Of a stretch of DNA of 55,136 bases, positions 3 through 19,144 are shown one piece after another. Source of the DNA: Hydrogenobacter sp. (GTDB lineage Bacteria > Aquificota > Aquificia > Aquificales > Aquificaceae); contig JBEULM010000029.1 in the NCBI GenBank assembly GCA_041287335.1, positions 1-55,136 on the forward strand, read 5' to 3'. The position numbers were made by a program, and so were the translations under genes. How positions within the stretch are numbered: the stretch's first letter is position 1; the number at the start of each line of letters is the position of its first letter. The notes below the pieces were generated by a model. The model worked only from the letters and a program-made list of their open reading frames with translations. It did not search any database and was not told the DNA's origin.

Positions 3-764
3 CTGACTGTGAGGGTTTATAAGGAAATTCAAAAGTTAAAGCCAGTGGATAGAATATGTGCCATAGACGTAGGGCTTAAGCATTTTGCCACCATTTGCTA
101 TTCGGATGGCTACTCAGAAAAGGTGGAAAACCCGAAGTATCTTGTCAAAACAGAAAAGAGGGTGGCAAGAGAGCAGAGGAAACTCTCAAGAAAGCAAAAG
201 GGTTCAAAAAACTATGAAAAACAAAGGCTGAAGGTGGCAAAACTTCATGAGAAAGTCAAAAACCAGAGAGAGGACTTTTTGCACAAGCTGTCCAGAAGGA
301 TAGTGAGCGAAAACCAGGCCATTGTCCTTGAGGACTTAAATGTGAAAGGTCTTCTCTCTGGCAATCTTTCCAAATACATACAGGACAGCTCATGGAGGAA
401 GTTTTTTGAGTATCTATCCTACAAAGCTTTGTGGTATGAAAGAGAGCTGATTTTTGCGGACAGGTTTTATCCATCTTCCAAGACCTGTCATGTGTGTGGA
501 TACAAAAATCAAGAGCTCAAACTGAGCGATAGAGAGTGGGTCTGTCCTGTATGTGGCACAAGACATGACAGGGATATAAACGCAGGCAAAAACTTATTGC
601 TTTATGGGTTCGCTCACCTTACGAGCGGTAGGGTCGGAACGGCCCGAGCTAAAGCCTGTGAAGAGGCGAGAGCCTCAATGAAGCAGGAAGCTCCACCTTA
701 TAGAAGTGGGAGTAGTTCACTTCATTTGGATAAGGCTGATATCTCCTCCCTAAGTTCTGGATAA
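3..764 (+). CDS. tnpB: IS200/IS605-type TnpB RNA-guided nuclease, 5' truncated by the window edge
   Basis: C-terminal two thirds of a TnpB/OrfB protein; the frame is still open at base 3, so the N-terminus lies outside. Counting from the GTG at base 9, the RuvC-I motif AIDVGLKH holds D20, Ruv[13 protein letters not shown] holds E108, a zinc ribbon uses C160/C163 and C179/C182, and RuvC-III is DRDINAGKN (D187/D189). All catalytic positions are present, so the visible part looks intact. TnpB proteins of this family are known to cut DNA guided by an RNA made from the element's right end. Here the last ~50 residues are translated from that RNA region (copy A), and the frame runs on past the element to stop 43 bases inside the antisense of the glyA 3' end. 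No tnpA is visible. Confidence 0.93.
611..720 (+). ncRNA. TnpB right-end guide-RNA scaffold (omega RNA), copy A
   Basis: Overlaps the tnpB 3' end. Four stems can be drawn: P1 GCTC/GAGC (612-615/623-626, loop ACCTTAC); P2 GGGTCG/CGGCCC (631-636/640-645, loop GAA); P3 GAGGC/GCCTC (663-667/672-676, GAGA loop); P4 an imperfect stem within 691-712. The box TGAAGCAGGAAG between P3 and P4 is identical in copies B (2527-2682) and C (19016-19144), where P2, P3 and P4 are kept by compensatory changes. The element appears to end in TTCAC at 720. In known TnpB systems the guide is the flank right after the right end; here that flank is antisense to the last codons of glyA. Confidence 0.75.
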
Positions 765-2289: not shown

Positions 2290-2547
2290 ATGGAGATAAA
2301 AATCTATGGAGGACCTGATTGTAGAAGTTGTCAGGAACTTTTTGAACGTATAAGAGTAGTTGCCGAAGATCTGGGGCTTAAGGCGGACATTCAAAAGATA
2401 ACGGATATAGAGGAGATAATAAACTTTAATGCTCTTCCTGTGCTAATGATAGATGGCATAATAAAACACATAGGCAAACCTATACCAACTGTGAGTGACA
2501 TAAAAGTTTTGCTTACTTCAGCCAGTGTGACCTCCTCCCCTCATTAA
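2290..2547 (+). CDS. Small thioredoxin-like redox protein with a CxxC active site
   Basis: An 85-aa protein resembling the small redox-active disulfide family (thioredoxin_3 type): C11-R-S-C14 after the first beta strand, and the cis-proline loop ALPVLMIDG near residues 53-61. It probably carries out thiol-disulfide exchange in the cytosol; the substrate is unknown. It starts at ATG after a clear AGGAGG. The last residues, after about base 2527, are encoded by the right end of the tnpB-less element B, and the TAA stop (2545-2547) sits in the loop of that element's P4 hairpin. The original C-terminus was therefore probably replaced by the insertion. It stands alone on this strand. Confidence 0.8.
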   Translation: MEIKIYGGPDCRSCQELFERIRVVAEDLGLKADIQKITDIEEIINFNALPVLMIDGIIKHIGKPIPTVSDIKVLLTSASVTSSPH

Positions 2548-2682
2548 TTGAGGGGCTTCCTGCTTCACAGAGGCTTTCGCCTCTCCACAGGCATAAGCTT
2601 GGGTCGGTCCAACCCTACCGCTCGTAAGGTGAGCGATCCCATATATAAAACATTGCTGGCTGACTTGGTTTCGTCAGCCTCA
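2527..2682 (-). ncRNA. Stand-alone omega-RNA-like gene, copy B
   Basis: Predicted transcript from the promoter at 2689-2716. It begins with an extra hairpin GGCTGAC/GTCAGCC (2658-2664/2673-2679) not seen in the other copies, then P1 (2620-2623/2631-2634), P2 GGGTTG/CGACCC (2610-2615/2601-2606), P3 GAGGC-GAAA-GCCTC (2570-2583) and P4, a perfect 7-bp stem CCCCTCA/TGAGGGG (2537-2543/2549-2555). P2 and P4 differ from copy A in sequence but still pair. The element end GGTCAC reaches 2527; anything transcribed beyond it is antisense to the thioredoxin-like gene. Confidence 0.65.
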
Positions 2683-2688
2683 CATACC

Positions 2689-2716
2689 TTTATAGCACAT
2701 TCAAGAACAATGTCAA
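2689..2716 (-). promoter_or_regulatory. Promoter of omega-RNA copy B
   Basis: Minus strand TTGACA (2711-2716), 16-base spacer, TATAAA (2689-2694). The -35 starts 21 bases after the left-end hairpin, almost the same spacing as in copy C (20 bases). This suggests the original transposase/tnpB promoter has been kept. Confidence 0.65.
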
Positions 2717-2792
2717 GTCCTTTTTGTCTGCTTTCATCTCTCCTTTAAAAAGGAGAGCCTTCTGGTTGTAGGTCGTAAATCCTTAAAGCTTA

Positions 2793-18895: not shown

Positions 18896-18980
18896 GCTAT
18901 AAATGCTTATTTTAACCCAACTCAGCAAGAAGTCCCCCACTTCTACTTTGTAAGTGGGGGATGAATTGCCTATTTTTCTC

Positions 18981-19009
18981 TTGACGAACAATAAGTTTCG
19001 GTGTAAATT
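18981..19009 (+). promoter_or_regulatory. Promoter of omega-RNA copy C
   Basis: TTGACG (18981-18986), 17-base spacer, TAAATT (19004-19009), at the same position relative to the left-end hairpin as in element B. Confidence 0.6.
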
Positions 19010-19015
19010 ATTATC

Positions 19016-19144
19016 GCTATGAAAAGATGGGCTTGCTCACCTTACGAGCAGTAGGGCAGGAACTGTCCGAACTCAAGCCTGTGGAGGAGCTAAAAGCTCC
19101 GTTGAAGCAGGAAGCTACACCTTCTATAAGGTGGAGTAGTTCAC
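19016..19144 (+). ncRNA. Stand-alone omega-RNA-like gene, copy C
   Basis: P1 GCTC/GAGC (19035-19038/19046-19049), P2 GGGCAG/CTGTCC (19054-19059/19063-19068, loop GAA), P3 GGAGC/GCTCC (19086-19090/19096-19100), and P4 CTACACCTT/AAGGTGGAG (19115-19123/19128-19136, 8 of 9 pairs). P2, P3 and P4 all differ from copy A, yet pairing is kept. The conserved box TGAAGCAGGAAG is present. The flank that would serve as guide starts at 19145 and is antisense to the end of the DinG-like gene. Confidence 0.7.

Follow-up and report, generated by a model that had tools for sequence, protein, structure and literature searches.

A TnpB-less mini-element of Hydrogenobacter that is probably also a guide-RNA gene, and its relatives in Aquificota and their phages

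Transposition by Y1 transposases requires only the ends of the element, as established for IS608 and ISDra2. Stand-alone omegaRNAs were reportedly mentioned for IscB by Altae-Tran in 2021. TnpB drives cleavage of the empty site and gene drive in known systems (PMC11870625). According to one survey, 64% of 16,029 RAGATH-18 RNAs adjoin IS607 TnpB, and the remainder thus lie apart; its passages on these RNAs describe neither a promoter, a 5' hairpin nor mobility for the unlinked ones (PMC11061315). HgcC4 and HgcC5 of T. kodakarensis are transcribed and are located apart from transposase genes (PMC4247193). In the open-access literature, no description was found of mobile guide RNAs that lack TnpB, have a promoter, and are capped by a hairpin.

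The window, meaning the whole 55,136-nucleotide stretch analysed, is contig C29 of a 64-contig genome; G002 is a Hydrogenobacter MAG of the same genus. Mini-element B is read on the minus strand and consists of the TTTA target, a left-end hairpin, a promoter, a 5' hairpin, the omegaRNA, the right end TCAC, and the guide (Table 1). Its right end is GAGGAGGTCAC, with the last base at 2527. A first-pass annotation had placed the locus at 2527-2757; the right end stands, while the left edge had been set at the hairpin and the element extends to 2775. The left-end hairpin, TTGACA-N16-TATAAA, and intact right-end RNA that it described are all found on this strand. Its proposal that the locus is an RNA gene that lacks TnpB and has a promoter of its own also holds. 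There is no tnpB between the ends of B, and all 19 pairs of the stand-alone omegaRNA consensus are present. The predicted fold has -68.6 kcal/mol, compared to -50.5 +/- 4.3 kcal/mol for 200 dinucleotide shuffles, all of which it beats (z -4.24).

Table 1. Features of mini-element B and of related loci in the window
Feature	Position	Strand	Basis or remark
TnpB gene, 5' part lost at the contig end; possible trans partner	3..764	+	PF01385, PF07282, NF038281
Thioredoxin-like ORF (MTH895/ArsE family, PF13192)	2290..2547	+	Final codons supplied by the right end of the element
Predicted guide ACTGGCTGAAGTAAGCAAAA; antisense to the thioredoxin-like ORF at its 3' end	2507..2526	-	By position
Whole mini-element B, 249 nt	2527..2775	-	Boundary type consistent with empty sites of other copies
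Right-end terminus TCAC	2527..2530	-	T/GTCAC terminates nearly all copies
Right-end hairpin CCCCTC-AATTAAT-GAGGGG	2537..2555	-	Sequence and fold
omegaRNA core helices P2-P4	2559..2618	-	19/19 consensus pairs in B; covariation in stand-alone copies
RAGATH-18-like stretch inside the omegaRNA core	near 2592-2558	-	RF03064 30.9 bits, below cut-off
omegaRNA stem-loop 1, CGCTC-ACCTTAC-GAGCG	2619..2635	-	Compensatory changes (alignment A2 columns 53-67)
5'-terminal hairpin GGCTGAC-GAAACCAA-GTCAGCC, 7-bp stem; marks the stand-alone type	2658..2679	-	Covariation, 21 distinct hairpins
-10 box TATAAA, 16-nt spacer from -35	2689..2694	-	Read from sequence
-35 box TTGACA	2711..2716	-	Position matches L018, L027, L029, L158, L159
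Left-end hairpin CTCTCC-TTTTTAAA-GGAGAG	2738..2757	-	Shared with tnpB-bearing left ends L013, L014
TTTA target next to the left end, presumably the TAM	2776..2779	-	TTTA precedes all 17 measured minis
Second stand-alone mini-element (window C), without 5' hairpin	18915..19144	+	TTGACG-17-TAAATT promoter

By anatomy alone, B resembles TnpB omegaRNA loci, with the guide formed by the flank of the right end and the TAM at the left end, and covarying helices are situated upstream of the right end. B and 40 further stand-alone copies are neither encoded with tnpB nor overlap it. Judged by its sequence, the RNA of B is omegaRNA-like and belongs to an element without tnpB. The ends, target, promoter, 5' hairpin, core, lack of tnpB, and mobile copies in several genera are direct observations, and the reading proposed for them, with a probability of roughly 0.6, is that B is a non-autonomous mini-element of the IS200/IS605 type and at the same time a complete guide-RNA gene whose TnpB would be supplied in trans.

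A DNA search gives 16 matches in the genome of the window. Some of them carry tnpB (the window copy at 3-764, L014, L017, L019, and L020), and others have none (B, window C, L018, and L021, the last being a near-copy of window C). A covariance model built from alignment A2 (R1) was run over 136 Aquificota genomes and has matches in 72. The 92 hits that were read comprise 44 tnpB-linked, 41 stand-alone, 3 partial tnpB, 3 undetermined, and 1 unclear. Since the omegaRNA itself is matched by translated C-termini of TnpB, a linked call demands a tnpB match that reaches 200 nt or more upstream; without this rule 78 of the 92 would be called linked.

The promoter of B is not listed by a generic promoter scan because its TATAAA lacks the final T. 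It is backed by related copies, in which this promoter recurs at the corresponding position. These include TTGACA-17-TATAAT in L018, TTGACA-17-TATAGT/TATACT in G002, and TTGACG-17-TATACT in L141. The 5' hairpin starts approximately 7-9 nt past the -10 box in G000, G002, G011, G073, G122, and L158. This nearly fixed spacing would put the 5' hairpin at about the expected start of the transcript.

The 5' hairpin of the stand-alone copies keeps a GAUAACCAA-type loop on a covarying stem. A GAUAAYCAA-type loop is found by pattern in 27 stand-alone hits and by eye in L024, which has one change. Of the 41 stand-alone copies, at least 28 thus have the hairpin, a proportion biased upward by a covariance model (R1) built from hairpin-bearing copies; among the 44 tnpB-linked copies none has it. 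About one third of the stand-alone copies, window C among them, have none, and the hairpin is therefore not obligatory. The first-pass annotation considered it private to B; this is contradicted by L018 in the same genome, with GGTTGAC-GATAGCCAAA-GTCAACT, and by many copies elsewhere. In 21 distinct hairpins, 83.1% of the stem cells are paired vs 67.7 +/- 2.4 in shuffles, and the covariation score is 0.435 vs 0.188 +/- 0.034, both statistics being inflated by related sequences. Sliding the arms gives at most 38.9% paired in the same set. Nine lineage representatives have 55 hairpin pairs, which are matched by 4 of 20,000 arm permutations. These counts come from a short hairpin-only alignment, as MAFFT misregistered the hairpin in A1 and A2; L018 is still misregistered in it and is scored as broken. 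A pseudoknot between the loop and a downstream segment (AACC with GGTT), considered by eye, is rejected since it fails in G002 and L018. In the stand-alone copy L127 (G010:C59), the leader forms a larger hairpin whose internal loop contains AATAACC; this may be the 5' hairpin in an elaborated form.

The omegaRNA core is equally intact in the two types, with 17-19 of 19 pairs kept in stand-alone copies and 15-19 of 19 in linked copies. Twelve stand-alone cores are 96.5% paired vs 85.3 +/- 1.3 when shuffled, with a covariation score of 0.443 vs 0.212 +/- 0.022, figures likewise raised by relatedness among the copies. Since Y1 transposition needs only the ends, the fact that promoter, hairpin, and core are all kept suggests that the RNA is under selection. 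It is unlikely that these elements are passive MITEs, which would have arisen by internal deletion, be mobilised in trans by TnpA, and retain the omegaRNA only through its overlap with the right end and the youth of the copies. Such an origin would fit the resemblance of both ends to autonomous elements, the near-identity of several copies within one genome, and the resemblance of the promoter to the tnpB promoter of linked copies such as L014 and L015. It does not fit the compensatory changes across genera in P2-P4, which are upstream of the right-end hairpin, the 5' hairpin, which covaries, has a conserved loop, and is absent from linked copies, or the nearly constant promoter-hairpin spacing in two families.

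All 17 measured minis start after TTTA, and 16 of them end in TCAC and one in TCAT. The copies share the TTTA target, and the flanks are different at every copy. Subterminal hairpins (in B), a fixed short target, and the absence of target duplication are properties of IS200/IS605 (Y1) elements and are all observed here. Empty sites without duplication are found in relatives for L027, L029, L085, and C20, and L018 also has an empty site aligned across the junction in a relative. Window C has an orthologous empty site in G004 with a weaker alignment. Relatives have an empty site for at least five copies. A supposed empty site of L141 in G014 has a 17-nt deletion between repeats and is not counted as clean. 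No empty site for B itself was found in any relative, because a search for the thioredoxin-like gene in the genus gave distant homologues only. G011 contains about 15 minis with different flanks, together with an autonomous tnpA-tnpB element (L170) and tnpB-only elements (L033); the left end is common to all. A Y1 TnpA (PF01797) is present in G011, with a matching left end. None is detected in the genome of the window at PF01797 sensitivity, so movement there would need a donor, and B may be immobile now.

Copies with the hairpin occur in six genera of two families (g1, g3, g6, g8, and g11 of the family of the window; g25 of f5). The first-pass annotation pictured a one-off deletion of the nuclease gene, which is at odds with the recurrence of the same layout as mobile copies across genera. 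An exact-pattern scan of public genomes yields nine Aquificota contigs and one binned as Deltaproteobacteria. The latter, L150:407-488 (-) in JAFDGW010000037.1, is a hairpin-bearing stand-alone omegaRNA and represents either horizontal transfer or a binning error. A scan of viral contigs yields two hairpin-bearing minis, L158 (IMGVR_UViG_3300042858_000011), labelled viral by IMG/VR and one weak major head protein match, and L159 (IMGVR_UViG_3300025373_000025), which sits between terminase and portal genes. The candidate guide-RNA elements of the stand-alone type are thus a dispersed mobile family in thermophilic Aquificota and some of their phages. The odds are about even for the wider proposal of widespread RNA-only mobile elements composed of a promoter, a 5' hairpin with the GAUAACCAA loop, and a guide scaffold between transposon ends, which would spread in bacteria and phages by borrowing TnpA to move and TnpB, in trans, for guide-directed retention or drive.

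Other stand-alone forms have different leaders. In a distant Aquificota family, L099, L114, and L115 (G122), L110 (G120), and L096 (G121) have an extra domain between promoter and core, GGCCG..CTACTAGT..CGGCC..ACTGGTAG, which looks like a covarying pseudoknot. The 5' hairpin is also present in L099, L114, L115, and L110. A long leader with GGTGGAGAGCTAAAGGGGTGTGATGCCAGCCTCCACC is found in L043, L047, L048, L049, and L104 (G011), L038 (G015), L126, L137, and L145; no tnpB is found upstream in those with enough upstream sequence.

Possible protein partners are encoded elsewhere in these genomes, where TnpB, and in some genomes Y1 TnpA, occurs with matching ends or RNA. TnpB-domain matches exceed the cut-off in 13 of the 15 genomes checked, and only weak ones are found in G018 and G073. 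The right-end RNA of B and that of the tnpB copy in the window share 87% identity; the omegaRNA of the latter ends at 720. The tnpB frame of this copy does not stop within the omegaRNA or at the right end but enters a glyA-like ORF, on the opposite strand, at its 3' end. L019, on contig C7 of the same genome, encodes a full-length TnpB of 392 aa in which AIDVG, LEDLN, and DRDIN provide the RuvC D, E, and D. The 426-aa TnpB of L014 (1870-3150, minus strand) has VVFQQDSI in place of the VLEDLN of other copies; the usual RuvC glutamate seems to be replaced, possibly indicating a rearranged or dead site.

Loading by TnpB in trans, which the first-pass annotation also proposed, is plausible and is the leading candidate mechanism. 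The promoter would give an RNA that begins about 7 nt past the -10 box, at the 5' hairpin, crosses the right end, and extends into the flank. The hairpin could stabilise the 5' end of this RNA, or substitute for an omegaRNA part that the tnpB coding sequence gives in linked copies. TnpB from another locus would bind the stand-alone RNA, and the complex would cut the empty target (TTTA and flank), whether this is left behind by excision or located on a sister chromosome or on incoming DNA. Repair of the cut target would then copy the element back. The element would thereby parasitise TnpA for movement and TnpB for retention, and the minis probably keep their genomic place with TnpB borrowed from other sources in the cell. 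The numbers of RNA-only copies, which in some genomes (G011) approach those of tnpB copies, and their intact RNA scaffold would also suit a decoy or regulator that titrates TnpB, so that the other copies cleave less and either the host or the element profits. Such a role is improbable, as the RNA has a 3' end built exactly as a guide-bearing right end and shows no sequence sign of a blocked guide.

B is inserted at the extreme 3' end of the thioredoxin-like gene. The first-pass annotation rightly described the guide as antisense to this gene; an antisense role has no support. The guide is antisense to the ORF only because every guide derives from the sequence next to the insertion. Its sole match in its own genome is the cis flank, which has no TAM, and trans targets in this genome do not exceed the chance level of a reversed-pattern control. 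The lack of a second target is expected if B targets its empty site; from what is known of TnpB, the guide should address the empty DNA site rather than mRNA. A transcript from B would run antisense to the final codons of the ORF, in line with a regulator of the thioredoxin-like gene, antisense or RNA-guided, that the host has domesticated. That reading is very improbable when each copy has its own flank and the guide simply equals the insertion site, the cis site is without a TAM and no second target exceeds chance, and the genus has only distant homologues of the gene, so no conserved pairing.

If the proposed trans arrangement is true, the guide RNA and nuclease of TnpB systems are already separate in nature, with the nuclease shared in trans as between CRISPR arrays and their effector. 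It would make testable how guides became independent of the nuclease gene en route to CRISPR, and would represent a selfish layer parasitic on TnpB with copies in phage genomes. In practice, thermophilic TnpBs could be supplied with guides from the minis, as compact natural RNA genes that have a promoter of their own and a 5' hairpin for stability.

Among known RNAs, HgcC of hyperthermophilic archaea has sub-threshold matches to Aquificota omegaRNAs that include the right-end hairpin and GGAGGAGGUCA. The best HgcC (RF00062) match in Aquificota has 32.6 bits, below the gathering cut-off of 50, and B is not among the matches. HgcC differs in being archaeal and in not being treated as mobile guide RNAs in the literature consulted, and the kinship is suggested by weak scores. 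TnpB omegaRNAs, of IS200/IS605 and the RAGATH-18 reRNA of IS607 TnpB, share with B the right-end position, the flank guide, P2-P4, and the RAGATH-18-like stretch CCUGUGGAGAG...UGAAGCAGGAA. Unlike them, B has no tnpB and possesses its own promoter and 5' hairpin. No Rfam family matches within the window at gathering thresholds; RAGATH-18 (RF03064) reaches 30.9 bits on B (E 0.019) against a curated cut-off of 44.9, and the ends of B are hairpin ends of the Y1 type. MITE-like and IS1341-like derivatives of IS200/IS605 resemble B in being short, with ends moved in trans, a TTTA target, and no duplication. In contrast to these derivatives, the minis hold a guide RNA that is complete, driven by a promoter, and conserved in structure, together with a dedicated hairpin.
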